62,555 bases of DNA from Teichococcus aerophilus (GTDB lineage: Bacteria > Pseudomonadota > Alphaproteobacteria > Acetobacterales > Acetobacteraceae): positions 1 through 62,555 of the forward strand of contig NZ_JACTVA010000030.1 in NCBI RefSeq assembly GCF_014490485.1. Reading direction: 5' to 3'. Below the pieces are notes generated by a model. It saw nothing but the letters and a program-made list of their open reading frames with translations. It was not told the DNA's origin and ran no database searches. Positions 1-17,023 of the stretch are shown in pieces; the stretch's first letter is position 1, and every line of letters starts with the position of its first letter. The position numbers and the translations under genes are program-made.

Positions 1-2
1 CG

Positions 3-116
3 GAAGGGCGCGGTTCCTTCGCCCTGGATGGCAAGATGATCGACATCCCCATCGTCCGCCGGGCCGAGGCGCTGCTGGCCCGGGCCGACGCCATCACCCG
101 CCGCACCGCCGCCTGA
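3..116 (+). CDS. C-terminal fragment of a CitE/malyl-CoA lyase family protein (cut by window start)
   Basis: Only the last 37 codons are in the window, reading to a TGA at 114-116. The peptide contains GSFALDGKMIDIPIVRRAE, the typical C-terminal segment of HpcH/HpaI-CitE aldolases such as L-malyl-CoA/beta-methylmalyl-CoA lyase. That family cleaves (3S)-malyl-CoA to acetyl-CoA and glyoxylate in the ethylmalonyl-CoA and serine pathways. The family call rests on this tail alone. A malyl-CoA lyase is likelier than a citrate lyase beta subunit because of the ALDGKMID-type motif, but the substrate cannot be fixed. The gene is convergent with the NRPS-like gene ending at 561. Confidence 0.7.
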   Translation, partial: EGRGSFALDGKMIDIPIVRRAEALLARADAITRRTAA

Positions 117-196
117 GTAAGTCCCGGCGCCGCCCCGTTGGCTTTGGGGGGGCGCCGGGCTTTGATGTACGCCTGCTGCTGATGGGCGGGGGAAAG

Positions 197-247
197 GTCA
201 GGGGAAGGAATGCCCCTGAAACCCCATCTTTTTTCTGTCAGTTTGGC
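197..247 (+). terminator. Terminator-like repeat, copy a
   Basis: CAGGGG (199-204) pairs with CCCCTG (213-218). After an ACCCC spacer comes a T-rich tract (about 228-236) and then AGTTTGGCG. The layout matches the copies at 41201 and 43701. It is oriented to stop transcription of the gene ending at 116, about 80 bp upstream. The stem is shorter than in the other copies. Confidence 0.5.
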
Positions 248-395
248 GATGCGCCCGGGGGTCCAGGTTGGCGCTGGGGATGATTTTGGCATTGGGCCAC
301 GCGGGTCGAATTGGCAGGCCCGGAGCTCTTGGAGCGGAATGGCTCGTGGTGGAACACCCGAACATCCCGCATGGCCCGCGCTCAAACAAAGGCGG

Positions 396-434
396 AGAGC
401 ACGGTCATGAACGACCGTGAGCGCATCATGCTCT
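396..434. repeat. Inverted-repeat element bounded by AGAGC / GCTCT
   Basis: AGAGC (396-400) pairs with GCTCT (430-434). Inside is a perfect 7-bp palindrome, CACGGTC (400-406) with GACCGTG (413-419). The right part GCGCATCATGCTCTA is closely matched at 41515-41528, where AGAGCATG and CATGCTCT bound a similar-sized interior. It appears to be a small dispersed structured repeat of unknown function. Confidence 0.45.
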
Positions 435-488
435 ACGCCCACCCAGCCATGTCCCAAACACCCGAGACTCCCCAACAGCCAAGCCCGC

Positions 489-537
489 AAGACTCGAAGA
501 AATAAAAGAAGGGGTCCGGGGAATTCCTTCCCCGGCC
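489..537 (-). terminator. Terminator-like repeat, copy b (3' end of the NRPS-like gene)
   Basis: On the minus strand the hairpin CCGGGGAA-GGAA-TTCCCCGG (516-535) is followed by ACCCC, TTCTTTTATTTCTT and a GAGTCT motif, which is a good intrinsic-terminator layout. It lies about 25 bp past the stop of the minus-strand gene ending at 561. Confidence 0.7.
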
Positions 538-560
538 TTCCTGTCCCCAGCCTGCGGCCC

Positions 561-3500: not shown

Positions 3501-4547
3501 CATGCCGGCATCGACGACGTAGCAGCTGTAGTTCGGAATGGGCCGGCCGATGGTGACGACGCCGTCCCGCGTCACCTCGTCCACCGTCGCCACCACCGTC
3601 GCCTCGGTGGGGCCGTAGGAGTTGAAGACGTGGCGGCCGGGCTGGCACCAGCGTTCCCGCACCGAGGGCGGGCAGGCCTCGCCACCCAGGATGATGATGC
3701 GGAGGCAGGGTACGTCCTCCGGCATCAGCGCCAGCAGCGTCGGCACGGTGTCCAGCACCGTGATGCCGGCCTCGCGCATCCGCGCCGGCAGTTGCTCCAC
3801 CTCCCCCAGCAGGCGGGATGACGCGACCCACAGCGTGGCGCCGACCAGGTAGGGGACGAAGATCTCCTCCAGCGAGAGGTCGAAGGCGATGGAGGCGCCC
3901 TGGAACACCACGTCCTCCTGCGCCATGCCATAGATGGCATTGGCCGAACGCAGGTAATGGCAGATGTTCCGATGCTCGATGACAATGCCCTTCGGCTTGC
4001 CGGTGGAGCCCGAGGTGTAGATCGCGTAGGCCGGGTGCGACGGCGTCAGGCCACCCTCACGCGCGTCCGGCGCCGGGCCCTCCGCGCCTTCCTCCAGCAG
4101 CGCCGCGCAGGCGATGGCGGCGGCGGGCAGCGGCCGCTCCAGCTTCGCGCCCGTCACCGCGTCGGTGACGAGCAGCGCCGCCTCGCAGTCTTCCAGGCAC
4201 TCGCCGATGCGCTCCGGCGGCGCATCCGCATCGAACGGGATATAGGCGGCGCCGCTCTTCAGGATGCCCAGCAGCGCCACGTGCAGGTCCAGCGAGCGGG
4301 ACATCCACAGCCCGACGAAGCGCCCCGGCCCGGCGCCGCGCGCCAGCAGCGCCCGCGCCACGCGGTCGGACCGCGCATCCAGCTCGGCATAGCTCAGCCG
4401 CCCGGCACCGCAGACCACGGCTGCCGCATCCGGCACCCGGCGGGCGGAGGCGGTGAAGATCTCCGGCAACAGTTCGTCCCGCAGCAGGGACGGGTCGCGC
4501 GGGCCCAGGAGTGCCGCCTTGCGGGGCAGGATGGCGGTCACGTTCAT
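561..4547 (-). CDS. Pls/PosA-type NRPS-like enzyme (adenylation, carrier, membrane/hexapeptide domain)
   Basis: Predicted 1328 residues from ATG at 4547; the ORF extends 52 codons further upstream, but that extension is non-conserved and arginine-rich. An adenylation domain (about 25-515) has YTSGSTGKPKG (177-187), FDLS at 222-225 (the Asp expected for alpha-amino acids), YGPTEA (311-316), a YRSGD/KLRGFRVELGEIE block near 396-433 and SGKADRKAL with the usual Lys. A carrier domain follows with LGGHSL, the phosphopantetheine Ser being S563. The last 690 residues hold about six membrane segments and left-handed-beta-helix hexapeptide stretches, as in the C-terminal domain of poly-epsilon-lysine synthetase-like proteins. 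There is no thioesterase or condensation domain. By family it should activate one amino acid and form isopeptide or peptide bonds at the membrane; the amino acid is unknown. It is the last gene of the export operon, 85 bp after the HlyD-like gene. No phosphopantetheinyl transferase is present. Confidence 0.85.
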   Translation of the reverse strand: MNVTAILPRKAALLGPRDPSLLRDELLPEIFTASARRVPDAAAVVCGAGRLSYAELDARSDRVARALLARGAGPGRFVGLWMSRSLDLHVALLGILKSGAAYIPFDADAPPERIGECLEDCEAALLVTDAVTGAKLERPLPAAAIACAALLEEGAEGPAPDAREGGLTPSHPAYAIYTSGSTGKPKGIVIEHRNICHYLRSANAIYGMAQEDVVFQGASIAFDLSLEEIFVPYLVGATLWVASSRLLGEVEQLPARMREAGITVLDTVPTLLALMPEDVPCLRIIILGGEACPPSVRERWCQPGRHVFNSYGPTEATVVATVDEVTRDGVVTIGRPIPNYSCYVVDAGMELVGAGVEGELLIGGPGIARGYLRRPELTAEKFIANPFGGTDDPVLYRSGDAVSMSEDGRLLFHGRIDDQVKLRGFRVELGEIESRLSLSPGIAQAAVVVRQDDGIDRLVAYVVPAAGASFDAAATRAALRETLPPYMVPAHFEVLATLPRLTSGKADRKALKALTLSLPAATEAQEEPQTPTEAALLAAARPLFPGQPIPFEADFFTDLGGHSLLAATFLATLREQPALRGASLEDLYGLRTLRAIAARIDEREKAEGPRRSLDLSFTPPPLLRRVLCGMAQAACMPVLLLALTGPWLTIFVMYQLITSDDVIHYYEVLALMGIYMLVTMGVALAGILGKRLVLWRATPGRYPLWGVYFFRWWLARQLVEFVPLRLMQGTPLAAAAMRLLGAKVGKGVCISGLHAGAIDLLEIGDDVTIGAKASFGNAEVVGNELIIGRVVLEKDAYIGTGCALGHDTVVRAGAELADLTALPPNTIVPALERWDGSPARKVGHVDPTSWPRHAPRPGRAMQGLQALYYGFLVFLMPALGLLPIFPAFYVFDHYDEVLQQLLGVQWYLPILTWPTAMILMAGTVLLVTAIRWVVLPRAPAGTCSLHSGFYMRKWTVALAAEVMLDSLSSLYSTVYMRGWYRLMGAKVGKGTEIATNFAGRYDTIEVGEGCFLADEVTLGDEDVRRGWMTSLPVRIGDRAFIGNDSVLPPGAEIPPGALIGIKSKPPEEPMEPGETRFGSPPIRLPSRQRFDAADVTHTFRPPLWRRAVRAVFELFSASMPTMMFITLGTIAADYVLFPALEASETWVAFLPVFVATCVACSFILAGVVLAVKWLVMGTYRPGNRGLWSWWALRTEAVTTLYWGTAGKLLLDAFRGTPFLPWALRLFGARIGRGVFLDTTDMTEFDCVSIGDYATINATSNLQTHLFEDRVMKVGRIDVAKGVSIGAFSTVLYDTKIGEYAELGLLTIVMKGEAIPAHTQWAGAPARPV

Positions 4548-4632
4548 GCGTCTGGACCCAAGCTTCTGAAGGACGACCGGCAAGCCACCATGGCATGGCG
4601 ACGATAGCCGGGAAGAGATGAAGGAAACGGCA

Positions 4633-5937
4633 TCAGCGGTGCGGCCCCGGCCCGCGCAGCATCTCCCGCAACGCCGGGATGATGAGGCCGAGGACGGAGA
4701 CACGCTCCGTCTGCACCTTGGCTTCCAGCAGCGTGCCCGCAGTGATCTGCGCGTCCGGCCCGCCCGAGGTGGTCCAGCGGAAGCCGGAGCGGGTCTGCGG
4801 GTCGCGCGTCATCTCCACCGTCATCAGGAACAGCGGCCCCTCCGCCGTCAGCTTGCGGATCAGGTCGTCGTTCCGCAGCATGTGGCGCATCTGCTCCGGG
4901 CTCGCCGCCACGTCGGAGACGCTGGTCACCACGCCGCGGATGGAGCCGAACACGTCCCGCCGCACGGAGGTCGGGTCCACCAGCACCGGCATGCCGGGCT
5001 GCACCTTCTTGCCATCCCGCGCCGGGATCAGCACGGCGGAGACCAGGCGCGTGCCACCGGGCCGGAAGTCGGAAAAACTCTCATCCACCGGCAGCAGCGA
5101 GACCAGCGGCGTGTCGAAGCGGATCAGGTCCCCGGGAAACACCTTGAGTTCGGAGACGATGCCGTGCTCCGTCGCCCGCACCCAACTTTCATTGGCGATG
5201 CGGCTGCGCAGGCGGCCGATCTGCCGTTCCGCCTGCGCACGGCGCGTCTCCAGCGCCTGCAGCTCGCGCTCGTTCTGCGCCTGCTTCTCATGCGTCTCCA
5301 GCGAGAAGCCGAGCAACCGGCCCTGCTCGGTGGAAATGCGTTCCAGCACCTGGGCCAGTTCCTGCCGCACCTGCAGGTAGCGCTCGAAGGTAGTGTGGCC
5401 GCTGCGGCGCAGCGCCTCCATGCCATCGGCGAGTTGCGCCAGCAGCGCGCGGCGCTCCTGCAACAGGCGGATGGTCTCCTGGCTTGTCGCCTCCTGCTGC
5501 CGCCGCACGCCGCCGAACATCTCGATCGTCTCGGCCTGCAGGGTGCGGACGCGCTGTTCCTCCCGGCGGATCAGATCCAGCTCGCTCTCCGCCAGCCGCA
5601 GCTCGGAATCCAGCGCCGGCTGCACGATGCGCGCCACCGGCTGGCCAGGCGCCACGCGCTGGCCGGAATCCACCAGCATTTCCACGATGCGGCCCTCATG
5701 GTCCGCCGTCACGGTGAATTCCAGCACGCCCTTGGAGCTGAGGACGACGCCGGTGCCGGCCACGTTGATCGGCACATGCACCACCACGGCGCCGGCGATC
5801 ATCGCCGCCACGGCCAGGCAGAGCGCCACCAGCGCCGCCAGGTGCCCGGCGCCCACCAGGCGCAACCCGCCGGCCAGGTCCTCCGGCCGGCGCAGCTGCG
5901 CCTCGGCTTCCGCGCGAAACAGGCTGGGGATGCTCAT
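4633..5937 (-). CDS. HlyD-family adaptor of an NHLM-type bacteriocin/peptide exporter
   Basis: 434 residues, starting at ATG 5937, which overlaps the stop of the upstream ABC gene in an ATGA junction; longer ORF starts lie inside that gene. One transmembrane helix (about 28-52) follows a short cytoplasmic N-terminus. Then come a split biotinyl-lipoyl region (GRIVEMLVDSGQRVAPGQPV), a long coiled-coil hairpin (about 110-260) rich in E/R/Q/L, the second half (ATEHGIVSELKVFPGD) and a beta-barrel. This is the periplasmic adaptor layout of type I exporters, and the order ABC, ABC, HlyD is that of NHLM systems. It should link the two ABC subunits to an outer-membrane channel; no TolC homologue is encoded nearby. 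Confidence 0.88.
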   Translation of the reverse strand: MSIPSLFRAEAEAQLRRPEDLAGGLRLVGAGHLAALVALCLAVAAMIAGAVVVHVPINVAGTGVVLSSKGVLEFTVTADHEGRIVEMLVDSGQRVAPGQPVARIVQPALDSELRLAESELDLIRREEQRVRTLQAETIEMFGGVRRQQEATSQETIRLLQERRALLAQLADGMEALRRSGHTTFERYLQVRQELAQVLERISTEQGRLLGFSLETHEKQAQNERELQALETRRAQAERQIGRLRSRIANESWVRATEHGIVSELKVFPGDLIRFDTPLVSLLPVDESFSDFRPGGTRLVSAVLIPARDGKKVQPGMPVLVDPTSVRRDVFGSIRGVVTSVSDVAASPEQMRHMLRNDDLIRKLTAEGPLFLMTVEMTRDPQTRSGFRWTTSGGPDAQITAGTLLEAKVQTERVSVLGLIIPALREMLRGPGPHR

Positions 5938-8495
5938 GGGTGGGCCGCCGGTGACTGGAGAGTGGGGGGCTGGAAGGTGGAGGGCGTGGCCAGCATCGCG
6001 GCGGGCGGGCCGGCAGCGGCCAGCGCGCCATCGCGCAGCATGATGATGCGGTCCGTCTCCCGCCACAGCGCCGGCCGGTGCGCGACGATGATGCGCGTGA
6101 CGGGCAGGCCGCGCAGCGTGCGCATCACCTGGCGCTGCGCCGCGCCATCCAGCGCGCTCATCGCCTCATCCAGGATGAGCACGCTGGGGGACTGGGCCAG
6201 CGCGCGGGCGATGAGGATGCGCTGCACCTGACTGAGCGAGAAGCCCATCCCCGTCTCGCCGACCAGCGTGTGCAGGCCCATCGGCATGGCGCGCAGTTCC
6301 TCCGCCACGCCGGCCTGCGCGGCGAAGCCCCAGGCGGCGTCCATGTCGATGGCGGTGGTGCCGCGGATATTGTCGTAGACCGAGCCGGGGAACAGCCGGC
6401 TGTTCTGCATCACTAGCCCCAGCTTGCGGGTCAGCTGCCGGCGGTTGATGCCGGAGAGGTCATGCCCATCCAGCAGCAGCCTGCCCGCCTGCGGCGGCTG
6501 CAACCCGGCCAGCAGGCTGAGCAGCGTGGACTTGCCGCTGCCCGAAGCACCGGTAATGGCGACGAACTCGCCATCCGCGATGGAGAAGCTGATACGGTCC
6601 AGCGCGCGCCGCGCGCCGAAGAAGAAGCTGACATCCACCACGTCGATGCGGCCGGAGAGCACGGGCACCGGCGGGCCGGAGACGAGCGGCTCCACCGAGA
6701 AATCCAACAGCGGGCGCGCCAGCTTCGCCATCGGCAGCAGCTTCATCGCCCCCATCAGCGCGTGGGAGAGGCCCTTGCCCGCCCGCGTCAGCCGGCCCAG
6801 CACCAGCACGAAGGCCACCGCCTGCCCGGCATTCACCTCCGCCTGCGCGTTGGCGAAGGCCAGGGCGGCGAAGCAGGCGGCCAGCACCAGCGCGTCCCAC
6901 AGATGTTCCAGCACGGGCAGCCGGTCGCCGATGCTGGCGGAGCGCATCAGCCGCGCCTGGAAGGCCAGGAAGTTATCGCCCCATTGGGTGAAGGCCCGCC
7001 GCTCCAGCCGGTTGCCGCGCAGCGCCGGCACCATGCGGACGAGGTCGTAGACGAAGGCGAGGACGATGACATCCATCCGCTCGCCCTCATAGATCGCGCG
7101 GAACTGTAGCCAGCCGATGAGCGCGGTGAGGCCGAGCCGCAGCAGGATGGCGCCGATGGCCAGCAGCCCGGCGGCGGGCGAGATGGTGGCGACCAGCGCC
7201 GCCGCCGCCAAGCCATGGATGAGCGCCAGCAGGCCTGTGCTGCCGAAGCCGATCAACGCGCGGCGGAACTTCTCCACCGTCTCCATCTCGGTCGCCAGGA
7301 TCAGGGTCGTGGAGCCGCGCAGGTCGTTCGGGGAGAGCCGCAGCAGCCGGTCCACCATGGCGGCATGCAGGGCAAGGCCGGCGCGGCCCTGGGCGCGCAG
7401 TTCCGCCAGCTGGCCGATGGCGAAGAAGGCCGTCTCCACCAGCAGCGCCGCCAACAGGGCCGCCAGCAGCTGGAACAGGAAGCGCGTATCGGCGGTATGC
7501 ACGGCGATGTTGGTGATCTGCTGCGAGGCCAGCGGCGGCAGCAGCGCCAACCCCGCGCCGACGACGCCGCACGCCCCCAGCAGCACGAAATCGGCCGTCG
7601 CCGCCTGGAGCCCGAAGCCCAGCAGCGACCGGAAGCTCAGCTTGCCGGCCGGCAGGGTGCGGCAGAACCCGTAGGCCTCCGCCGCCAGTGCCGACCAGTC
7701 GGCCTGCCGCAGGCGCCGCCGCGCGCCGCCGGCGGCGAGGGAAAACATGTCGTAGCCCCCGAAGCGGCGGGGCAGCAGCAACAGCGGCGTATCCCCGGCG
7801 GCGAATACCAGCATCGGCCCCTCGCCTTCCGGCCGCGCGCCGTTATCCAAACGCAGGGCGCGCAGGCGCAGGCCATGCGCGGCGGCGAAGCGCTCCAGGA
7901 AGTCCTCGCGGCCTTCCTCCGGGTCTTCCGGCACCGCCACCGGCCGGGCGCCCATCTGCCGTGCCAGTTCCGCCGCGGCTTCGGCCAACGGGCCGCCGGC
8001 GCTTTTCGGGGCGCGGCGGAAGCGGCGCTGCAACAGGCGGGGGAAGCCGGCCAGCGTGGCCTGATACGCCGCATCCTCCCGCCTCTCCGCCTCCGGCGCG
8101 GGCGCGGCCAGGGCTGCGGCGATGGCGGTGAGCAGTTGGTCGCTGCGGCCCTGCGCCTGCGGGTGCAACGAAGCCGCATCCAACACCGTGCCGAGCGTGG
8201 CGGCGGCTTGGTGCAATGCCTGCAACCAGGGGCGCAACCCGGCCTCATCCTCCTCCCGCGCCGGCTGCAACAGCAGGCGGCGGCGGGCCCGCAGCAGCCA
8301 TTCCGTCCCCGGCGGGCCGGGCAGCAGCAGCGTCCCGGCTTCCAGCGTCGCGATGAAGCGCAGGCCGCCATCCGGCAGCCGCGCCATCAGGTCCACCGGG
8401 CCGCCGCGCAGCAGCGCCGGGGCGCAGGCGGAGAGCAGCGCGCTTTCCTGCGCGGCCAGCGCCAGGCCCCGTGCGGGTGGGGAGATCTCGTTCAA
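5934..8495 (-). CDS. NHLM-type ABC half-transporter without peptidase (permease/ATPase)
   Basis: 853 residues. It starts with TTG at 8495, overlapping the TGA of the upstream gene (TTGA), so translation is probably coupled. The N-terminal 270 residues are a divergent, arginine-rich soluble domain lacking the C39 Cys/His. A six-helix ABC exporter membrane domain (about 290-560) and a nucleotide-binding domain follow. Walker A is GASGSGKST (K655), Walker B LILDEAMSALD and the H-loop IIVAHRP, all canonical, but the signature is SLSQVQ instead of LSGGQ. This matches the ABC2 type of NHLM exporters. It probably pairs with the product of 8492-10618, whose defects are complementary. Confidence 0.88.
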   Translation of the reverse strand: MNEISPPARGLALAAQESALLSACAPALLRGGPVDLMARLPDGGLRFIATLEAGTLLLPGPPGTEWLLRARRRLLLQPAREEDEAGLRPWLQALHQAAATLGTVLDAASLHPQAQGRSDQLLTAIAAALAAPAPEAERREDAAYQATLAGFPRLLQRRFRRAPKSAGGPLAEAAAELARQMGARPVAVPEDPEEGREDFLERFAAAHGLRLRALRLDNGARPEGEGPMLVFAAGDTPLLLLPRRFGGYDMFSLAAGGARRRLRQADWSALAAEAYGFCRTLPAGKLSFRSLLGFGLQAATADFVLLGACGVVGAGLALLPPLASQQITNIAVHTADTRFLFQLLAALLAALLVETAFFAIGQLAELRAQGRAGLALHAAMVDRLLRLSPNDLRGSTTLILATEMETVEKFRRALIGFGSTGLLALIHGLAAAALVATISPAAGLLAIGAILLRLGLTALIGWLQFRAIYEGERMDVIVLAFVYDLVRMVPALRGNRLERRAFTQWGDNFLAFQARLMRSASIGDRLPVLEHLWDALVLAACFAALAFANAQAEVNAGQAVAFVLVLGRLTRAGKGLSHALMGAMKLLPMAKLARPLLDFSVEPLVSGPPVPVLSGRIDVVDVSFFFGARRALDRISFSIADGEFVAITGASGSGKSTLLSLLAGLQPPQAGRLLLDGHDLSGINRRQLTRKLGLVMQNSRLFPGSVYDNIRGTTAIDMDAAWGFAAQAGVAEELRAMPMGLHTLVGETGMGFSLSQVQRILIARALAQSPSVLILDEAMSALDGAAQRQVMRTLRGLPVTRIIVAHRPALWRETDRIIMLRDGALAAAGPPAAMLATPSTFQPPTLQSPAAHP

Positions 8496-10618
8496 GTGCG
8501 CGGGTCCGGGCTCGCGGCCTGGTAGGCCGCCTCCACGTCCAGCGGCAGCAGCCGGTCCTTCTGCAGGAAGCAGGCACGGTCCAGGTGGCGGATGGCGCTG
8601 GCGCGGTTGGTCAGCAGGATCAGGGTGATGCCGCGCCGCCGCAGGTTCTGCAGCACCAGCGCCTCGGCCTCCTCATCCAGGTGGCTGGTGGCGTCGTCCA
8701 GCACCAGCAGGCGCGGGTTGCCGGCCAGGGCACGGGCGATGCCCAGCCGCTGCCGCTCCCCACCGCTGAGACCGGTGCCGCCCTCGCCGATCGGGCCATC
8801 CAGCCCGCCGGGGCGGGCATCGATCACCTCCGCCAGCCCGGCATCCCCTACGGCGCGGGCGATATCGGCGGCCGGGGTGGCGTTGCCCCAGACGGTGATG
8901 GCGGCGCGCAGGGTACCGTTGGGGAAGAAGGGCTGCTGGTCGACGAAGCCGATGCCCTCGCAATCCCGCACCCAGCCGGCGCCTGCCGTGCCGAACAGGA
9001 TCTCGCCCCGCACCGGCGTGACGAGGCCGACCAGCAGCCGCGCCAGCGTGCTCTTGCCGCCGGAGGCACCGCCCATGATGCCGATGCTCTCGCCCACCTC
9101 CAGCGTGAGGTCGAGGCCGGAGAAGACCGGCGCGCCATTCGGGTAGGCAAAGCCGACATCCCGCAGCCGCACTGCACCGGTCGTGACGGGCACGGTGACA
9201 GGTACGGGGGCCGCCACTGTAGTGACGGCGCGCGGTTCATCCAGCACATCCCCCAGCCGGCCGAGCGCGGCGCCGGACTGGCCGATGGCGGTGCCGATGC
9301 CGGTGAAGGCCCCCAGCGCCGCGAAGAACAGGCCGGAGAGCGCCAGGAAGCCAACCAGCGTGCCCGCTGTCATCTCGGTATAGATCACCTGCAAGGCGCC
9401 GACGCCCAGCACCGCCAGGGTAGCGAAGCGGCTGCTGGCATAAGGCAGCGCTGCCAGCAGGTGCGTGGTGCGACCACTGCGCTGCTCCGCATTGATCAGG
9501 CGGGCCTCCGCCTGCACCATGCGGTTGAACAGCACCGGCTCGCTGCCGCTGGCGCGGGCCTGCTCCAGCAACGCGGTGCCCTGCACGGCCGCGGCATGCG
9601 CCTGGCCGGCCACCATCTGCAGGTGCACCGCCTGCTCCCGCACCCGGCCGGCGACGACGCGCAGCACCACCAGCTCCACCGCCGCCAGGCCCACCACCAC
9701 GGCGGTCAGCACGGTGTCGTACAGCAGCATGATGCCGGCATAGCCCAGCATGGCCAGGCCATTGACCACCAGTTGCACCACGGGGCCGGAGACGGTGCCG
9801 GCCAGTTGCGTGGCGAATTGCGTGCGGCTGGAGACCTCCACCGCGCTGCGGCGGACGAAGAACTCGTAGGGCAGGTGGAACAGCCGCCACACATAGCGGG
9901 CGGAGATGACCGCGTTCACCTTGGTGCGCAGCAGCCGCAGCCCACGCAGGTAGAGGTAGCTGAGCCCCGCATTGAACGCGCCCAGCGCGACGATGGCGGC
10001 CAGCAGCGGTGCCAGCCAGTCACCGTGATCCTGCACCAGGTAGTCATCGACGAAGATCTGCGTCAGCCCCGGCACCAGCGCGCCGACCAGCACCAGCAGC
10101 CCGCTGATGAGGATGATGGCGGCGAAGGCGGCCCAGGAACCCTGCAACTGTTCCAGCAGCCGCCACAGCGCCGGGCGCGGCGGCGGGGTGCGGCGGAAGG
10201 CTGGCCCGGCGCGGAAGGTCAGGGTGATGCCGGTGAAGCGCGCGCCGAATTCCGCGCGGTTCAGCACGCGCCGGCCATGCGCGGGGTCGTTGATCTGGAA
10301 CGCATCGCCTTGGATGGCTTCCAGCACCACGAAATGGTCGAAGTTCCAGAACAGGATCTGCGGCAGCGGCAGGCCGCGCAGTGCCTCCACCTCCCGGCTG
10401 AAAGCCTCGGCCTCCAGGCCCCGCGCCCGGGCGGCGGCGAGGATATCGGCGGCGGAGGTGCCATCGCGCGAGACGCCGCAGCTATCCCGTACCGCATCCA
10501 GCGATTCCCACCGGCCGAACGAAGCCAGCACCATGGCGAGACACGCGGCGCCGCATTCCGCCGCCTCCATCTGCAGGATGGTGGGCACGCGGCGGCTTCG
10601 GGACCGGCGGAAGAGCAT
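8492..10618 (-). CDS. NHLM-type ABC transporter with N-terminal C39 double-glycine peptidase
   Basis: 708 residues from ATG 10618; the ORF runs on upstream into the preceding gene's sequence without coding character. The C39 peptidase domain (about 10-140) has Cys22 in AAECGAACLAM, His95 in FDHFVVLE and Asp111 in NDPAHG, a complete catalytic triad. An exporter membrane domain (about 165-440) follows, then an ATPase with Walker A GGASGGKST (K522) and signature LSGGERQRLGIARAL. Walker B reads LLVLDDATSHLD, with Asp where the catalytic Glu is expected, and the H-loop His is Asn (LLTNRAS), so one ATP site is probably degenerate. It should cleave double-glycine leaders in the cytosol and export the cargo. 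The likely cargo is the 11661-13673 product. It starts 22 bp after the gene ending at 10641. Confidence 0.9.
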   Translation of the reverse strand: MLFRRSRSRRVPTILQMEAAECGAACLAMVLASFGRWESLDAVRDSCGVSRDGTSAADILAAARARGLEAEAFSREVEALRGLPLPQILFWNFDHFVVLEAIQGDAFQINDPAHGRRVLNRAEFGARFTGITLTFRAGPAFRRTPPPRPALWRLLEQLQGSWAAFAAIILISGLLVLVGALVPGLTQIFVDDYLVQDHGDWLAPLLAAIVALGAFNAGLSYLYLRGLRLLRTKVNAVISARYVWRLFHLPYEFFVRRSAVEVSSRTQFATQLAGTVSGPVVQLVVNGLAMLGYAGIMLLYDTVLTAVVVGLAAVELVVLRVVAGRVREQAVHLQMVAGQAHAAAVQGTALLEQARASGSEPVLFNRMVQAEARLINAEQRSGRTTHLLAALPYASSRFATLAVLGVGALQVIYTEMTAGTLVGFLALSGLFFAALGAFTGIGTAIGQSGAALGRLGDVLDEPRAVTTVAAPVPVTVPVTTGAVRLRDVGFAYPNGAPVFSGLDLTLEVGESIGIMGGASGGKSTLARLLVGLVTPVRGEILFGTAGAGWVRDCEGIGFVDQQPFFPNGTLRAAITVWGNATPAADIARAVGDAGLAEVIDARPGGLDGPIGEGGTGLSGGERQRLGIARALAGNPRLLVLDDATSHLDEEAEALVLQNLRRRGITLILLTNRASAIRHLDRACFLQKDRLLPLDVEAAYQAASPDPRT

Positions 10619-10640
10619 GACGGCGACTCGCGATGCGCCG

Positions 10641-11063
10641 TTACGGCGCCGGGGCGGAAGCCCGCCGCAGGGCGGTGAAGGCGACGGCGATCTGCTCCTC
10701 CACCAGTGCGCCACGGGCGGCGGCGCCTTCCAGCGCCGCATAGGCCGTCTTCAACGCATCGTCGCCATAGGCGGGCGCGGTGCCGCCGGCGCGGGTGATC
10801 ACCTGCTTCTCCAAGTCGATGACGGTCAGGAAAGCGACCAGCCGGCTCTTGCCCTGCTCCACCGCGTTGTTGAAGTAGCCAACGGAAAGCTGGCGCTCCG
10901 CCGCCTTGTACGCCGCTTCCAAGACGGCGGGGGACGCGGCGTTCTGGCCTTGCAGCACCTCCGCCCCCAGCCGGCCGATCCACTGCGCCTGCGAGTCCGA
11001 CCAGCCGCCCGCCTTCGCGCGGGTGGCAAGCTGCGCCTCGAGGCCTTGCTGGGACTGGGTCAT
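10641..11063 (-). CDS. Small protein of unknown family, paralogue of the 11124-11630 product
   Basis: 140 residues if translated from the second ATG at 11063 (MTQSQQGLEAQL), chosen because it aligns with the paralogue's MTQT start and has a GAGTGG-like ribosome site; an ATG at 11096 would add 11 residues. It is predicted mostly helical and soluble, with no signal peptide, membrane segment or double-glycine leader. Conserved with the paralogue are GWSDSQAQW, RQLSVGYFNNAVEQGKSR and AFLTVIDLEKQ, and a GDDALKTAYAALE block. I do not recognise the family. Its place between the candidate cargo and its exporter suggests a cargo chaperone, immunity or maturation role, which is inference only. Confidence 0.75.
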   Translation of the reverse strand: MTQSQQGLEAQLATRAKAGGWSDSQAQWIGRLGAEVLQGQNAASPAVLEAAYKAAERQLSVGYFNNAVEQGKSRLVAFLTVIDLEKQVITRAGGTAPAYGDDALKTAYAALEGAAARGALVEEQIAVAFTALRRASAPAP

Positions 11064-11123
11064 CTGTATCCACTCGATCTGCGGAGGTTGCGGCATCTCA
11101 TCGGCCCGTGCGGCGTTCCCGGC

Positions 11124-11630
11124 TCAGTGCCGGGGGGCGTCGCGTTCCTCCGCCAGCAGGCGCTGGATCTCGGCGAAGCCGGCGGCGACCTGCCGCTCCG
11201 GCGTCTGGCCTGTGGCGGCGGCCTGCTCCACCCGGCCGCAGGCGGCCATCAGCACGTCGTCCCCGTATTCGGGGATGGGCGCGCCACGGCGCCCGGCCAG
11301 CTGCTTCTCCAGGTCGATGACGGTGAGGAAGGCGGCCACGCGGCTCTGGCCCTTTTCCAGCGCGTTCTGGAAATAGCCGACGGTCAGCTGGCGCCGCGCC
11401 TGGCCATAGGCCTCGGGCAAAGCCTGCTCGACCGGCACGCCATCGACCACGTCCTGCAGCAGCTTCTCCTTCGCCAGGATATCCAGCCAGGCTGCCTGGG
11501 ATTCCGACCATCCCTCCAGCTGCGCGCGTTGCAGGATCTGCGCGCGAGCGGCGGCATCGATCTCCCGCAGATTCTCGGCGAGCCGGGCACGCTTCTGGGC
11601 GAATGGGTCGGGGGCGGTGGTCTGCGTCAT
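11124..11630 (-). CDS. Small protein of unknown family, paralogue of the 10641-11063 product
   Basis: 168 residues from ATG 11630, 30 bp after the stop of the large leader protein and 60 bp before the paralogue's start. It is charged and helix-rich with no membrane segment or signal. It shares GWSESQAAW, RQLTVGYFQNALEKGQSR, AFLTVIDLEKQ and the GDDVLMAACGRVEQAA block with its neighbour at matching spacing, so the pair came from a tandem duplication and diverged. Function is unknown. Sitting directly downstream of the candidate exported protein, it could be its immunity protein or export chaperone. No catalytic motif is visible. Confidence 0.8.
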   Translation of the reverse strand: MTQTTAPDPFAQKRARLAENLREIDAAARAQILQRAQLEGWSESQAAWLDILAKEKLLQDVVDGVPVEQALPEAYGQARRQLTVGYFQNALEKGQSRVAAFLTVIDLEKQLAGRRGAPIPEYGDDVLMAACGRVEQAAATGQTPERQVAAGFAEIQRLLAEERDAPRH

Positions 11631-11660
11631 GTCAGGATTCCCGATAAAAGCCGGCGCGCG

Positions 11661-13673
11661 TCAGCTGAAGAAGCCGGAGACAAAGGTCCAGCCATAGATG
11701 TAGGCCGCACCCACCGCGAGGATCGGAGTGTCCGAGATGACCTGCGTCGCCTTGTCGGTATTCTTGCAGGCCTTGTCGAAGTCGCCCTTGATGTTGATGT
11801 CGTAGGTCCCGCCCACGCCCAGATAGCCGCCGATGGTCAGCTTGACGTCGACCTTGCCGTTCTCGATGGAGATGTCCGGCTCGAACTTGACGCCGATGGC
11901 GCCCGCCTTGAAATGCCCGGTGGCGGATGCGCCGTTGCCGTCCTTGGTGAAGGTGCCGACATTGACGTCCGCGCCCACGCCGGCATTGGCCTCGAAGCCG
12001 CCGCCTGCCTTCACCTTCACCTTGCCGGTCTTGGGGTCGAAGCTAACGTCCACCTCGGCCTTGGCCTCCACCCGCGCCTGGACAAAGACGTCGGCGCCGA
12101 CAGTGACCTTGCCTTCCCCCACCTTGATGTCGTGCGTCACCGTCACCGAGGCCGTGACCTCGGCGGAGGCCTTGACCTGCGCGTTGACGCCATCGAACCC
12201 CAGATGCGCGCCGGCCTTGGCGCCGATCTCGCCATGCAGGGCGGCGGAGACCGTCTCCGTATGCTCGAACCCCAGGACGGTGTCGGTGACGGCGTGGCTG
12301 ACCTCGCCATGGAGGGCGAACTGCGCCGACGCATCGGCGTCGAAGGACGTATTGGTCGACGCGAAGCCCGCCTTGGCCTGATAGGATTCGGTGCCGAGCA
12401 CGCGGTCCTTGGTGACCAAGATCGTCTTGCCCTGCTCGTCCTTCAGCGTCGTCACGTCCTCGCCGCCATAGCGCGTGACGGACCCATGGACGACCTTGGC
12501 GCCGACACCGAGATCGGAGCTCCAGCTCTCCGTCCCCGCCGTCACCGTGGTCGCGTCGATGCCCTTGTGCGTCTTGAGCACCCCGCCGGTGTCGGAGACG
12601 ACGATGTCGTCCGTGCCGCTGTCGGCGGTGACCACGGGCTTGATGGTGTTGGTGTAGTGGCCATGCGCCTCGGCATCTTTCTTCGCCGCCTCGGTCAGCG
12701 CCTCGCTCACCAGCTTGTTGCCGAGATGGGTCAGGTTGGTGCGGACCATCTCCGCATTCTTCTGGGCCTGCTCGGCCTTCTTGGCGTCGTCCTGCTTGAT
12801 CTTGGCGGCGGCATCGGCCTTCGCCTTCGCGTCGCTCAGCGCCTTGTCCAGCTGCGCCGCCACCTTGTGGCCGTCGGCGGCGTCGCCGTGGCCGGCGGCA
12901 TCCTGCGCCGCCGGCTTCGGCACGCCGGGCGCGGGCGCGCCGGCCGCGGCAGGGGCGGGCTTGGAAGCCTCGGCCTTGGCCTGCGCCGTCACGGTCTCCA
13001 GCAGCTTGGTGTGCTCGGTGTGCTGCTGCACCGCCTGGTCATAGGCGGACTTGGCGGCGCTGATCTCACTGGCCGGCTTGTTCTGCTGCTGCAGGCTCTG
13101 CAGCCGGTCCTCGTAGGCCTTCACGGTGCCGGCGCTGATGCCGTGCAGCTCCTTCGCCGTATCCACCACGGAGCGCGGCCCCTCCCCGCCATGCGGGGCG
13201 GCGTCCAGCGCCTTCGGGCCGGCGCGGTCGTTATCCTGCTGCTTCTCGGCCGCCTTCTTCTCGGCATCGGCGGCGGTCGATTTGATGGTGACCTTGGTCG
13301 TCCCGGTACCCTGGTAGTCAGGGTTCTCCACTGTGTACTTCCACTCGTTCTTCAGGAACTCGCTGCCGCCCTTGAGCTTGATGCCCGTGACCGCCTTGAA
13401 GTCGTTCGCCACCTCCTTGGAATAGTTGGCGGGCAGGCTGGACTCGGGCTTGGCAGGGGGCTGTTCCGGCCCGCTGGCGGCCTCCGGGCCCGGCTTGGCG
13501 GCCGGGGTGGGCTCGGCGGCGTGCGGGTCTGCCCCCGCGGTCAGCGCGGCGGCGCGGTCCCCGTCCATGGGCTTGGCTTCATCGGCCCGGGCGCCGCCGA
13601 TGATACGGCGAAGCACGTCTTCCGGCAGTGGCAGAACCCGGTCGGCGGGTGAGTGCTCGTTGGGTTCCGTCAC
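11661..13673 (-). CDS. Large candidate exported protein with an N-terminal double-glycine leader
   Basis: 670 residues, first gene of the export operon. The GTG start at 13673 is supported by a strong GGAGG site 6-7 bp upstream. Residues 16-27 read LPEDVLRRIIGG: with the Gly pair at -2/-1 there are Leu at -12, Leu at -7 and Ile at -4, the classic C39 leader pattern, so cleavage after Gly27 is predicted. Residues 28-110 are Pro/Ala-rich. A charged, Ala/Lys/Gln-rich probably coiled-coil region (about 150-320) follows, then about 300 residues of alternating hydrophobic and polar residues rich in Gly/Val/Ala that look like successive amphipathic beta-strands. The C-terminus is hydrophobic (ILAVGAAYIYGW, then a final FFS). 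No RTX nonapeptides, known toxin motif or recognisable family were found. The mature part, about 643 residues, is far larger than a usual double-glycine peptide. It could be a toxin, adhesin or matrix protein. Confidence 0.8.
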   Translation of the reverse strand: MTEPNEHSPADRVLPLPEDVLRRIIGGARADEAKPMDGDRAAALTAGADPHAAEPTPAAKPGPEAASGPEQPPAKPESSLPANYSKEVANDFKAVTGIKLKGGSEFLKNEWKYTVENPDYQGTGTTKVTIKSTAADAEKKAAEKQQDNDRAGPKALDAAPHGGEGPRSVVDTAKELHGISAGTVKAYEDRLQSLQQQNKPASEISAAKSAYDQAVQQHTEHTKLLETVTAQAKAEASKPAPAAAGAPAPGVPKPAAQDAAGHGDAADGHKVAAQLDKALSDAKAKADAAAKIKQDDAKKAEQAQKNAEMVRTNLTHLGNKLVSEALTEAAKKDAEAHGHYTNTIKPVVTADSGTDDIVVSDTGGVLKTHKGIDATTVTAGTESWSSDLGVGAKVVHGSVTRYGGEDVTTLKDEQGKTILVTKDRVLGTESYQAKAGFASTNTSFDADASAQFALHGEVSHAVTDTVLGFEHTETVSAALHGEIGAKAGAHLGFDGVNAQVKASAEVTASVTVTHDIKVGEGKVTVGADVFVQARVEAKAEVDVSFDPKTGKVKVKAGGGFEANAGVGADVNVGTFTKDGNGASATGHFKAGAIGVKFEPDISIENGKVDVKLTIGGYLGVGGTYDINIKGDFDKACKNTDKATQVISDTPILAVGAAYIYGWTFVSGFFS

Positions 13674-13679
13674 GGGCTG

Positions 13680-13684
13680 CCTCC
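13680..13684 (-). promoter_or_regulatory. Strong Shine-Dalgarno deciding the GTG start at 13673
   Basis: The minus strand reads GGAGG here, 6 bp before the GTG. It fixes the start and therefore the N-terminal double-glycine leader. Confidence 0.75.
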
Positions 13685-14012
13685 GGCATAGACGTAAGAA
13701 ATTCTCGCTTTACGAAAATCACTACAGGAGGACTCTCACCTGCTCCAGAAAATTTGTTCGGGGCGGGGGCTCTTTGTGCCGCCCAGCCCTTGATGCCGTG
13801 CTCTGGCAGGCAACCTTGCCCGGTCACGAAGGCCTGAGGTGAAGGAACTGGGCTGGGGGAAAGCGGCGGAGACGTGACGGCAGTGAGCCCAGACCCGGCA
13901 GCCACCGTGGCCAAAGGCCCCTGTGGTCTGTCACAGCCGGCGGTCACCCCGCCCGCACAGGCTGGCGCCTCAAGGGCGCCCGGCCGCGCCAAAGGCGGTG
14001 CCGGTCACTATG

Positions 14013-14044
14013 AGGGCCGGCCATGCCACCGCACGGCCGGCCCT
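14013..14044 (-). terminator. Hairpin downstream of mqo
   Basis: AGGGCCGGCC (14013-14022) is perfectly complementary to GGCCGGCCCT (14035-14044), with a 12-nt loop, 11 bp past the mqo stop. There is no T-tract, so it may be a weak terminator or only an mRNA 3'-end structure. Confidence 0.45.
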
Positions 14045-14055
14045 TCGGCACTTGA

Positions 14056-15765
14056 CTACAGCGCCATGTCAGGCACGCGCCGCACCTCGCCCGCCGGGTT
14101 GGCGGCGGTGCTGGGCTTGGGGAAGGCGGCCGGGTCGATCGCGGGCGGCGCGATGGCCAGCTCCAGCCGCTCGCCCGTGGCGGCCCATTCCGCCGCCACG
14201 CGATCGGGATGCTGGTTCAGCAGCGTGCCGTAGCTCGGCACGATGCGGCGGATCTTCTCCTGCCAGGCCGGCGTCGCCAGCCGGTCGGCGAACACGCGCT
14301 GCAGCAGGTCCAGCATGATCGGCGCAGCGGTCGAGGCCCCGGGCGAGGCACCGAGCAGCGCGGCCAGCGTCCGGTCCCCGGAATGGACGATTTCGGTCCC
14401 CAGCTTCAGCACGCCGCCCTTTTGCGCGTCCCGCTTGATGATCTGCACCCGCTGGCCAGCCTGCCACAGCCGCCAATCCTCGCCCCGCGCCTGCGGGTAG
14501 TATTCCCGCAGCGCCGCCAGCCGGTCGGCGTCCGACATCATCAGCTGCTCGCCCAGGTAGCGGACGAGGTCGAACTCATCCCAGCCCACGCTCAGCATCG
14601 GCCGGATATTGTCCAGCGTCACCGAGGCCGGCAGGTCGAAATACGACCCCTCCTTCAGGAACTTGGTCGAGAAGGTGGCGAAGGGGCCGAACAGGATGAC
14701 GCGCTTGCCGTCCAGCATCCGCGTGTCCAGGTGCGGCACGGACATGGGCGGGGAGCCGACAGAGGCCTTGCCATAGGCCTTGGCCAGGTGCCGGTCCACC
14801 ACCCCCGGTGCCTCGGTGACGAGGAAGGAGCCGCCGACCGGGAAGCCGGCATAATTGTCGCCTTCCGGCACGCCGGACATCTGCAGCAGGTGCAGCGCGC
14901 CGCCGCCGGCGCCAAGGAACACGAACTTCGCGTCCACCGTCCGCTCATCGGCCCCGGTCTTGCGGTTCTTGTAGGTGACGCGCCAGGTGCCATCGGTGTT
15001 CCGGGCGATGGCACTGACCTCGCTGGACGTGTGCAGGCTGAACCCCGCCTGCGCCTTCAGGTGGGAGACGAACTGGCGGGTGATCTCGCCGAAATTCACG
15101 TCCGTGCCCTGCGGCGCCCGCGTGGCCGCGATCTCCTGCCCCTTGTCCCGCCCTTCCATCATCAGCGGCACCCACTCGGCGATCTTCGCGGCGTCGCGCG
15201 AGAACTCCATGCCGGCGAAGAGCGGGCTGGATTGCAGCGCCTCGTGGCGCTTCTGCAGATAGGCGATGTTCTCGGCACCCCAGACGAAGCTCATATGCGG
15301 GGTAGAGTTGATAAAGGAACGCGGGTTCTTCAGCACGCCGGCCTGCACCTGATGCGCCCAGAACTGGCGGGACACCTGGAAGGCCTCGTTGATCTCGACG
15401 GCCTTCGCGGTCTGGATCTTCCCGTCCGCGTCCTCCGGCGTGTAGTTCAGCTCGGCCAGGGCGGAGTGGCCGGTGCCGGCATTGTTCCAGCCATTCGAGC
15501 TTTCGAGCGCGACATCATCCAGCCGCTCGATCATCTCGATCGACCAGCCCGGCTCCAACTCGTGCAGCAGCACGCCGAGCGTCGCGCTCATGATGCCGCC
15601 GCCCACCAGAAGCACGTCCACCGCCCGGACGGCAGGGGCCGCGCGCACCGGCAGCGCCGCGATGGCGCCGGCCGCGACGGCGGTGCCAAGCAGCTGCCTG
15701 CGGTTCAGCGTGAGATGTCGGGGGTTCTCAACGGCATTGCGGCCGTTCTTGTCGTCTTCGCGCAT
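14056..15765 (-). CDS. mqo: Malate:quinone oxidoreductase with an N-terminal Tat-like leader
   Basis: 569 residues from ATG 15765. The enzyme oxidises L-malate to oxaloacetate with FAD and passes electrons to the quinone pool, a membrane-associated TCA-cycle alternative to malate dehydrogenase. Evidence is the FAD-binding start [19 protein letters not shown], the Mqo signature [20 protein letters not shown], the [11 protein letters not shown] block and near-full family length. It begins with about 45 extra residues containing [19 protein letters not shown], a twin-arginine, hydrophobic, Ala-rich segment that looks like a Tat signal, whereas well-studied Mqo proteins are cytoplasmic and peripheral. 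Orientation relative to the membrane is therefore open. It is monocistronic by spacing. Confidence 0.93.
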
Positions 15766-15868
15766 TGATAGAGGTCCTCATTCAAAAACCTCCCTATGCC
15801 GCCTCCTCTAGCCAGAACCCGGCGCGCCATCAACCTGCGCGCGCCTCATGGCAGCGCCGCAGGCCGGC

Positions 15869-15907
15869 GGCGCCGGTGCCAGGACCCGGGCGGGCGGCAC
15901 CGGCGCC
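15869..15907 (-). terminator. Hairpin after the Bug receptor gene
   Basis: GGCGCCGGTGCC (15869-15880) pairs perfectly with GGCACCGGCGCC (15896-15907), giving a 12-bp stem just 6 bp past the stop of the minus-strand gene ending at 15914. No T-run follows. Confidence 0.5.
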
Positions 15908-15913
15908 GGGGCG

Positions 15914-16906
15914 TCAGTTGAGCGTGACCTTCGCCTCGACGATGACCTTGCCCCAGCGGGACAGCTCCTCCCGCAACTGCGCCGCCGTCGCCTCGGGGGT
16001 GGTGGGCTCGGGCAGCACGCCCTGTTGGATCAGGCGGTTGCGCACGTCGTCCTGCGCCAGCGCCGCGCGCAGGTCCCGGTTCAGCCGCGCCAGCACCGGG
16101 CCCGGCGTGGCGGCGGGCGCCAGCACGCCGTAGAGGGAAGAGACCTGGAAGCCGGGCAGGCCCGCCTCCGCCGTGGTCGGCACATCCGGCATGACGCTGC
16201 TGCGCGTCCCGGTGGCGATGGCCAGTACCTTCAGGCCGCTGCCGTTCTGCATCACGTTGGGCAGGGTGGCGAACATCAGATCCACCTGCCCGGCCAGCAC
16301 GTCCGCCAGCGCCGGCGCGCCGCCGCGATACGGCACGTGCAGCATCCGCGTGCCGGTCAGCGTGGCGAAGTACTCGCCGGCCAGATGCTCGGTCGAGCCA
16401 TTGCCGGAGGATGCGTAGCTGAGCGGGCGGTCCGCCTTCCGCAGCAGCGCGATCAGCTCCGCCAGGCTGGACGCCCGCACCCCGGCCCCGGCCACGACGA
16501 CGATCGGCACGGCGCCGATGGTGCCGACCGGCGCGAAGTCCCGCCCCAGGTCCAGGCCCAGATTATTGCCCGGCATGCCGGCCAGCATGGCGAAGTTGGT
16601 GATGGGCGCCATCATCAGCGTGTGCCCGTCCGCCGGCGCGCGCGCCACGAATTGCGCACCGATGGCCCCGGCGGCGCCGGTGCGGTTCTCCACCACCACC
16701 GACTGGCCGAGATGCGGGCCCATGCCCTGCCCGACCAGCCGCCCGACGAAATCCACCGCGCCGCCGGGCGAGAAAGGCACGATCAGCCGCACCGGCTGGT
16801 TGGGGAAGCCCTGCGCCCGCGCGGGCCGCGCGATGGCGAGGCCGATCCCGGCCGCCAGGATGGAGCGGCGCCGGAGCCGCGATGGGGAGCGAAGATTCAT
16901 GGGCAT
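15914..16906 (-). CDS. Bug/TctC-type tripartite tricarboxylate receptor
   Basis: 330 residues from ATG 16906, chosen for a GGAAGG site 8 bp upstream; an in-frame ATG at 16900 is also possible. It is a periplasmic solute receptor of the Bug family. A twin-Arg-like leader (RLRRRSILAAGIGLAIARPARAQ) is followed by the family hallmarks FPNQPVRLIVPFSPGGAVDF, VVENRTGAAGAIGA and VPYRGGAPAL. The ligand is unknown; Bug proteins bind carboxylates and other small acids. No TctA/TctB membrane partners are in the window. It is separated from the upstream operon by a terminator hairpin at 17000-17023, so it is probably its own unit. Confidence 0.9.
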   Translation of the reverse strand: MPMNLRSPSRLRRRSILAAGIGLAIARPARAQGFPNQPVRLIVPFSPGGAVDFVGRLVGQGMGPHLGQSVVVENRTGAAGAIGAQFVARAPADGHTLMMAPITNFAMLAGMPGNNLGLDLGRDFAPVGTIGAVPIVVVAGAGVRASSLAELIALLRKADRPLSYASSGNGSTEHLAGEYFATLTGTRMLHVPYRGGAPALADVLAGQVDLMFATLPNVMQNGSGLKVLAIATGTRSSVMPDVPTTAEAGLPGFQVSSLYGVLAPAATPGPVLARLNRDLRAALAQDDVRNRLIQQGVLPEPTTPEATAAQLREELSRWGKVIVEAKVTLN

Positions 16907-16999
16907 TCTCGAAGCCTTCCCTGAGAGGCCGGTGACGCGTGGCAATCATCCCGTCTGGCGTGCGGCCTGTTTTCTGCCGCTTGCGCCGAAGCCGTCATC

Positions 17000-17023
17000 G
17001 GCGGGGGCACGGATGCCCCCGCC
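17000..17023 (-). terminator. Terminator hairpin after the acyl-CoA ligase operon
   Basis: GGCGGGGGCA (17000-17009) pairs perfectly with TGCCCCCGCC (17014-17023) around a 4-nt loop, 6 bp past the stop at 17030. The stem is very stable; there is no clear T-tract. Confidence 0.55.

Follow-up and report, generated by a model that had tools for sequence, protein, structure and literature searches.

Contig NZ_JACTVA010000030.1 of Teichococcus aerophilus (62,555 nucleotides, all of which are called the window below) carries a gene for a 670-residue protein with a double-glycine (GG) leader, followed by two small companion genes and by the genes of an exporter whose first ATP-binding cassette (ABC) protein contains a C39 peptidase. 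The locus is probably a dedicated C39 (double-glycine) type I system that exports this protein, the putative cargo, as a large, unmodified surface or fibre-like component. The leader, the peptidase triad, the operon, their conservation, the companions and the exporter clade are established from the sequence. The arrangement suggests that a bacteriocin-type exporter may also send out large surface proteins; the type of secretion is itself known, and the large cargo is a variant of it rather than a new kind.

The leader-bearing protein and its operon

A first-pass annotation had proposed a 670-residue reading frame with a textbook double-glycine leader, placed first in an NHLM-type export operon beside a C39 peptidase ABC transporter with an intact Cys22/His95/Asp111 triad. 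The frame is real and does stand first; the strand, which had not been stated, is minus. The genes lie, all on the minus strand, in the order cargo, companion A, companion B, ABC1, ABC2 and HlyD, with gaps of 30, 27 and 22 bp from the cargo on and then a 4-bp overlap, and mqo is found about 380 bp upstream of the cargo (coordinates are given in Table 1). The leader LPEDVLRRIIGG has Leu at -12, Leu at -7, Ile at -4 and Gly-Gly at its end, and the predicted mature protein, Ala28 to Ser670, has 643 residues, a mass of 66.0 kDa, an isoelectric point of 5.7 and one Cys. The triad of ABC1, numbered from the likely ATG at 10618, is intact (PF03412 at 7e-32), and the catalytic Cys, His and Asp are present, as read by eye, in ABC1 of all four loci of the family described below.

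The high GC content, together with a plus-strand open reading frame (ORF) of 1181 residues (10107-13652) that lies opposite the cargo, both companions and the beginning of ABC1, might suggest a chance motif on an ordinary or spurious frame. This explanation is scarcely credible. The codon-position GC of the cargo (0.66/0.47/0.91) is coding-like and close to that of mqo and the other operon genes, a ribosome-binding site precedes the start codon, and there are homologues at the protein level, all of which keep the leader. The background of the motif is also low. Within the first 45 residues, the strict GG motif was found in 1 of the 387 genes of 150 residues or more that were predicted in 38 fetched loci (L047-L084; this gene list comes from a crude caller based on GC at third codon positions), where shuffles expect 0.39 genes, and the single gene that bears it itself adjoins an NHLM exporter. 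Shuffled versions of the cargo N-terminus yield the motif at a frequency of 0.00027. On these grounds a chance motif or a shadow ORF was rejected for the minus-strand cargo, and it is the 1181-residue plus-strand frame that looks like a shadow. A gene finder could choose the wrong strand at 10107-13652, as the simple caller did.

Three homologous loci were found: in a genus-mate (G014), in a Rhizobiales bacterium (L010) and in Bosea sp. WAO (L011), the last two through a companion-alignment search of genome contigs (2 of 70 candidate stretches). L010 and L011 each contain a cargo with a DVL..[IV][IV]GG leader, two companions, ABC1, ABC2 and HlyD; the exporter genes precede the cargo in L010, giving two gene orders across the family. 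In all four loci (the window included) the leader, the companion or companions and the exporter are on one strand. Homologues that keep the locus and lose the GG motif, which would have spoken against the first-pass annotation, were looked for, and 4 of 4 loci keep a GG leader with hydrophobic residues at -12, -7 and -4. Mean pairwise identity within the cargo is 58% in the leader, 12% before it and 20-46% after it; the leader is thus the best conserved part, which is the pattern expected if a conserved machine reads it. The segment just past the predicted cleavage site (residues 28-47; 13533-13592, minus strand) is 44% conserved in the four cargos and ends in A.A[LM]T.G or similar. None of the four cargos has a Sec-like hydrophobic stretch within its first 60 residues (highest 19-residue hydropathy 0.23-0.70), and export by the Sec pathway was rejected for that reason.

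The NHLM label given to the exporter holds only in part. HlyD scores above the TIGR03794 cut-off, and the best NCBIfam models for ABC1 and ABC2 are the NHLM ones, over nearly the whole length; yet both proteins score below the curated cut-offs of TIGR03796 and TIGR03797. Because of these scores ABC1 and ABC2 are best classed, as judged from their sequences, as a divergent NHLM-like branch and not as textbook NHLM members. The locus resembles the NHLM/NHLP systems (TIGR03796/03797/03794) in combining a peptidase ABC protein, a second ABC protein and HlyD in one operon with a GG-leader cargo. Apart from the scores, it differs in having extra helical companions, in a cargo core of 643 residues with no NHLP or Nif11 match, and in the absence of any enzyme that modifies ribosomally made peptides among the annotated window genes. 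In the available text of its defining paper, the NHLM exporter was described with short cores, averaging 26 residues for LanM-linked NHLPs, and was expected to reveal further families of modified peptides (Haft et al. 2010, PMC2887384).

Directly after HlyD in the window lies a gene for a Pls/PosA-type non-ribosomal peptide synthetase, and the exporter might in principle serve the product of this enzyme or some short peptide, the GG segment then serving only to dock a regulator or chaperone inside the cell. This is very improbable. The Pls gene does not adjoin the exporter in the genus-mate (L006, where exonuclease VII is found) or in Bosea L011 (peptidase S58), and large, unrelated GG proteins are found repeatedly beside exporters of this type (see below). 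Among ORFs of at least 30 residues in positions 1-17000 of the window there is no other plausible GG precursor; besides the cargo, only a Rossmann-type motif in mqo appeared. A role for Pls/PosA was rejected because it is absent beside both other exporters with readable flanks, the contig of L010 ending too near. That the 670-residue protein is the cargo, which had been an inference of the first-pass annotation, is supported by the conservation of the leader in 4 of 4 loci, by the survey described below and by the lack of another GG precursor in positions 1-17000.

From this arrangement we infer cleavage after the two glycines, export, a chaperone role for the companions and a function at the surface. 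The C39 domain of ABC1 would recognise the N-terminal leader DVLxx[IV][IV]GG and cleave it behind Gly27. The cargo, 643 residues long and poor in Cys, would be threaded out of the cell, N-terminus first, by a complex of ABC1/ABC2 and HlyD together with a TolC-like protein whose gene lies elsewhere. A TolC-like gene is present elsewhere in the genome (122 bits, under its cut-off). The six-helix companions would be cytoplasmic export chaperones holding the cargo in an unfolded state, and outside the cell the coiled-coil part and the beta module of the cargo might assemble into a surface-held fibre or an adhesin- or matrix-like structure. Export by the C39 system is the best supported of these steps, the chaperone and surface-fibre roles being weaker. 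The companions are probably cytoplasmic chaperones. Their structure model is confident (pLDDT 91, pTM 0.79) and predicts six helices, with no membrane-like segment (highest 19-residue hydropathy 1.18). Structural comparison of this model gave no telling match.

Large leader-bearing proteins beside other exporters

A profile of the companions was searched against 385 genomes of the class, and besides the own genome only G623 matched at E <=0.001 (E 7e-8). The order on that contig is the end of an NHLM-type ABC1, ABC2 (TIGR03797, 627 bits), a 382-residue GG-leader protein that carries LNEELLQGITGG at residues 15-26, and the companion. ABC1 is truncated there by the contig end, its C39 domain lying beyond the available sequence, and the 382-residue protein has no detectable homology to the window cargo.

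At E 1e-100, 86 of the 289 class genomes have a TIGR03796 match, 13 of them above the cut-off, and the window ABC1 was matched in 16 of 249 family genomes. A survey for GG-leader ORFs, such as the first-pass annotation had called for, covered 38 NHLM-type loci: 20 of the 22 best other TIGR03796 rows (G516:1619049 and G419:2099064 were left out), G309:C4, and all 17 others from the ABC1 family search. Another 17 lower-scoring C39/ABC loci (L067, L068 and L070-L084) were scanned separately, outside the survey and the tree described below. Eight large GG-leader proteins were kept, in 7 of the 38 loci, in addition to the one in G623. Two are at L107 (427 and 449 residues) and one at L109 (449 residues). 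The proteins at L061 and L062, directly upstream of HlyD-ABC1-ABC2, form a family of about 215 residues that spans two families of the class and has no Pfam match over the gathering cut-off. The remaining three, at L108, L110 and L113, contain RTX repeats; the combination of RTX repeats and a GG leader near exporters with the C39 cysteine is unforeseen by the usual classes of type I secretion system. Inspection by eye removed six ORFs with cores of at least 150 residues (at L049, L052, L061 742-1569, L102, L104 and L113 1400-2965), which were taken to be Rossmann/FAD motifs, membrane proteins or doubtful frames; several ORFs with shorter cores were removed likewise. The other surveyed loci had short cores of 15-77 residues, doubtful frames or no GG ORF. 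G267 also encodes, on a different contig, a paralogue of this L109 protein in a 620-residue open frame; the leader, LEDASLASVVGG, is kept, and identity over the leader and beta part is 70%.

The ABC1 tree holds 41 loci, L069 (incomplete ABC1) and L045 (ABC1 running off the contig) being left out. The four main loci group together in a single exporter clade (100/100). The exporters of L109, L061/L062 and the RTX cargos fall with L101 into a separate clade (100/99), and L107 stands apart on a long branch. At L101, which lies within the clade of RTX-cargo exporters, no such cargo was found. The C39 cysteine is kept in 39 of the 41 loci, the exceptions, L056 and L057, being without a large cargo, and all eight large non-RTX cargos compared have 0-1 Cys.

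Table 1. Positions of the features discussed, in the window and at the surveyed loci
Feature	Location	Strand	Details
Putative cargo	11661..13673	minus (13673->11661)	670 aa, GTG start
Ribosome-binding site GGAGG	13680..13684	minus	6 nt 5' of GTG, read from sequence
Double-glycine leader motif	13593..13628	minus	LPEDVLRRIIGG, residues 16-27; A28 next
Helical/coiled-coil part of cargo	12666..13178	minus	residues ~166-336; AlphaFold2 model; N-terminus before it low-confidence
Antiparallel beta-strand module of cargo	11781..12581	minus	residues ~365-631; AlphaFold2 model and profile comparison
C-terminal tail of cargo	11664..11780	minus	residues 632-670, ends ...SGFFS
Companion A	11124..11630	minus	168 aa, six-helix, no known family
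Companion B	10641..11096	minus	151 aa, paralogue of A
ABC1, C39 peptidase/permease/ATPase	8492..10618	minus	TIGR03796 626 bits (cut-off 853.3), near full-length match
ABC2, permease/ATPase without peptidase	5934..8495	minus	TIGR03797 474.7 bits (cut-off 709.4)
HlyD-type membrane fusion protein	4633..6066	minus	TIGR03794 235.3 bits (cut-off 156.2)
Pls/PosA-type non-ribosomal peptide synthetase	561-4703	minus	TIGR02353 563 bits; directly after HlyD
GG-leader RTX-repeat protein	L108 6310-7386	minus	349 aa; leader LTNETLESVTGG; Pfam HemolysinCabind
GG-leader RTX-repeat protein	L110 6733-7431	minus	222 aa; leader LRTEDLNKVTGG; Pfam HemolysinCabind
GG-leader RTX-repeat protein	L113 462-1139	plus	220 aa; leader LPLNALDKVVGG; Pfam HemolysinCabind
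GG-leader protein	L061 6895-7551	plus	214 aa; directly upstream of HlyD-ABC1-ABC2
GG-leader protein	L062 1839-2501	plus	220 aa; directly upstream of HlyD-ABC1-ABC2

Structure and possible role of the cargo

Pfam and NCBIfam searches (the latter at E 0.01) found no domain in the cargo, and the RTX repeats whose absence had been noted at first reading gave no Pfam match. Nor was there a Peptidase_S74 domain (Pfam), a match to the NHLP or Nif11 leader models (NCBIfam, E 0.01) or a known toxin domain. The helical or coiled-coil half and the long beta-strand half that had been described for the protein are both seen in its AlphaFold2 model, with modest confidence. In the beta module there are eleven antiparallel strands of long or medium length, nine of which span 21-26 residues; as far as about residue 540, most block means lie at 70-88. 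Seven of the eleven are strongly two-faced, with a Val/Ala face and a Lys/Glu/Asp/Thr/Ser/Gly face; the composition of the faces is similar in the three homologues, the non-polar face having been chosen as the more hydrophobic one.

Structural comparison of the cargo model returned outer-membrane proteins in 49 of the 50 matches listed. Once exported, the beta half might become a true beta-barrel or pore in a membrane, either as an outer-membrane channel or as a secreted pore-former. This is improbable. The structural matches favour barrels, but the model is weak, and they may reflect only long antiparallel strands.

A relationship to proteins of viral contigs suggests a fibre- or adhesin-like role. 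The profile of the L107, L109 and L045 cargos matched a 309-residue open contig end in G402 (E 1.2e-8) that carries Peptidase_S74. The G402 protein has relatives at six IMG/VR loci, and at four of these the match extends along the entire query. Peptidase_S74 was found in L123, L124 and L126. The viral-contig proteins of L124 and L126 (601 and 605 residues) consist of coiled-coil-like helices, a beta module, helices and S74, and have no GG leader; open frames of 601-605 residues with a beta module related to that of the cargo are seen at about 2203-4017 (plus strand) of L124-L127. In hhalign, the four-cargo profile matched the viral-contig proteins at 96% probability with a score of 81.8 over residues 477-631 of the window cargo, as compared with 49% and 43.1 for a reversed control; when the columns after 480 were shuffled 20 times with parity kept, the score did not exceed 25.8. 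The cargo thus resembles these proteins in its coiled-coil-like helices and related beta module, and differs in lacking S74. S74 domains help trimeric fibres assemble, and because the beta module is related to that of S74 proteins, a fibre- or adhesin-like role is the most natural reading. Between the cargo groups, the four-cargo profile matched the L107 pair at 43% with a score of 41.2 (reversed 25.4) and gave no match to the L045 cargo (6%). Homology to the L109 protein is not claimed, because that match (85%, score 52.5) hardly exceeds the reversed control (68%, score 46.1).

Antagonistic peptides are the usual load of C39 exporters, and the cargo could accordingly be a surface-held, contact-dependent bacteriocin. 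It would aggregate on the producer, its tail or beta module would damage the membranes of neighbours, and the companions would be immunity proteins. There is an alphaproteobacterial precedent in Cdz of Caulobacter, which in the available text is type-I-secreted, surface-retained and rich in Gly, Ala, Val and Ile (PMC5380434). The C-terminal tail holds the most hydrophobic stretch of the cargo in the window and in G014, but not in L010 and L011 (the ends of the other family cargos are GFFS, SIFG and GLFS), and the paralogous companions adjoin the cargo. However, the cargo is far larger than CdzC/D, and no known toxin domain was found in it. The companions are all-helical and have no membrane segment. 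Cdz comprises two glycine-zipper proteins and an inner-membrane immunity protein; the window has one large cargo. Moreover, companion A is better conserved than the cargo (48-61% against 29-41% identity to the window in the family loci), unlike typical immunity proteins. On this evidence a bacteriocin is unlikely, though it has some real chance of being right.

Cargo size and known double-glycine systems

The microcin V/CvaB and PCAT1 systems share with the window an active C39 triad and the L-12/L-7/I-4/GG leader, but their cargo is below about 10 kDa, as against 66 kDa here after the predicted cleavage. Their exporters have one ABC gene. HlyA-type systems resemble the window in passing a large Cys-poor protein through a type I route (RTX proteins are Cys-poor), but the window has a catalytic C39 domain with its Cys present, an N-terminal leader and no RTX repeats in the cargo. 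GG-leader or type-I-secreted proteins that end on the surface, envelope or matrix include, in addition to Cdz, MAM of Faecalibacterium, a 135-residue GG-leader envelope protein (PMC12184118), and EbfG/PteB of Synechococcus, small matrix or surface proteins of a GG/type I system (PMC9981879), both as given in the available parts of these papers. MAM and EbfG are small next to a 643-residue cargo, and are likened to it by description only, no kinship having been seen. Among the papers listed by searches of an open-access library from which subscription journals are largely absent, no title or opening of an abstract describes NHLM-type exporters with GG-leader cargos as large as this one.

Several points weigh against the export of a large surface protein by this route. 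The available text of a review limits active-C39 exporters to cargo of about 10 kDa and ties dead C39 domains to large RTX cargo (PMC8277102), and in what is available for the MccV C39 system, export falls off at a 116-residue cargo (PMC10231218). The cargo family is rare in our searches: it was found in 2 of 58 genomes of relatives (the own genome and G014) and in 2 of 17 within the genus, the own genome being counted each time. Among 249 family genomes only the own genome was found (a coarse search in which each genome had four candidates scored); the 289 class genomes yielded the own genome and one match judged to be chance. The chaperone role is drawn from position, size and the lack of a membrane segment, because the companion fold had no telling match. 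Finally, the AlphaFold2 model of the cargo is weak (mean pLDDT 54, pTM 0.40), and four of its eleven strands (1-3 and 9) are weakly two-faced.

On balance we lean towards a further class of type I system in Alphaproteobacteria, in which active-C39 exporters would carry proteins of about 20-80 kDa behind a short, cleaved N-terminal GG leader. It would include coiled-coil/beta-module proteins related to fibre-type viral proteins as well as RTX-repeat proteins, so that the split between C39 for small cargo and dead C39 for large RTX cargo would fail; in the window branch, one or two helical proteins would serve as dedicated chaperones. If this is true, the 10-kDa rule for active C39, as stated in the available text of the review (PMC8277102), is broken by the large GG-leader proteins that several genera encode next to NHLM-type exporters. 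It would also mean that natural C39 exporters can transport proteins of 66 kDa by means of a short tag that is then removed, and that surface or secreted proteins so far unrecognised in Alphaproteobacteria could be found by a simple signature in the genome.

Possible regulators were seen near some of these loci. In Bosea L011 (4912-6974, minus strand) a response regulator (Pfam) lies divergently upstream of the cargo operon, perhaps with a sensor kinase gene, judged by position and size alone. Two ORFs that by eye are STAS-type and anti-sigma-kinase-like, respectively, stand just upstream of the GG cargo at L109 (4938-5781, plus strand), and a similar STAS-like ORF near 3053-3388 of L047 suggests shared regulation of some NHLM loci.
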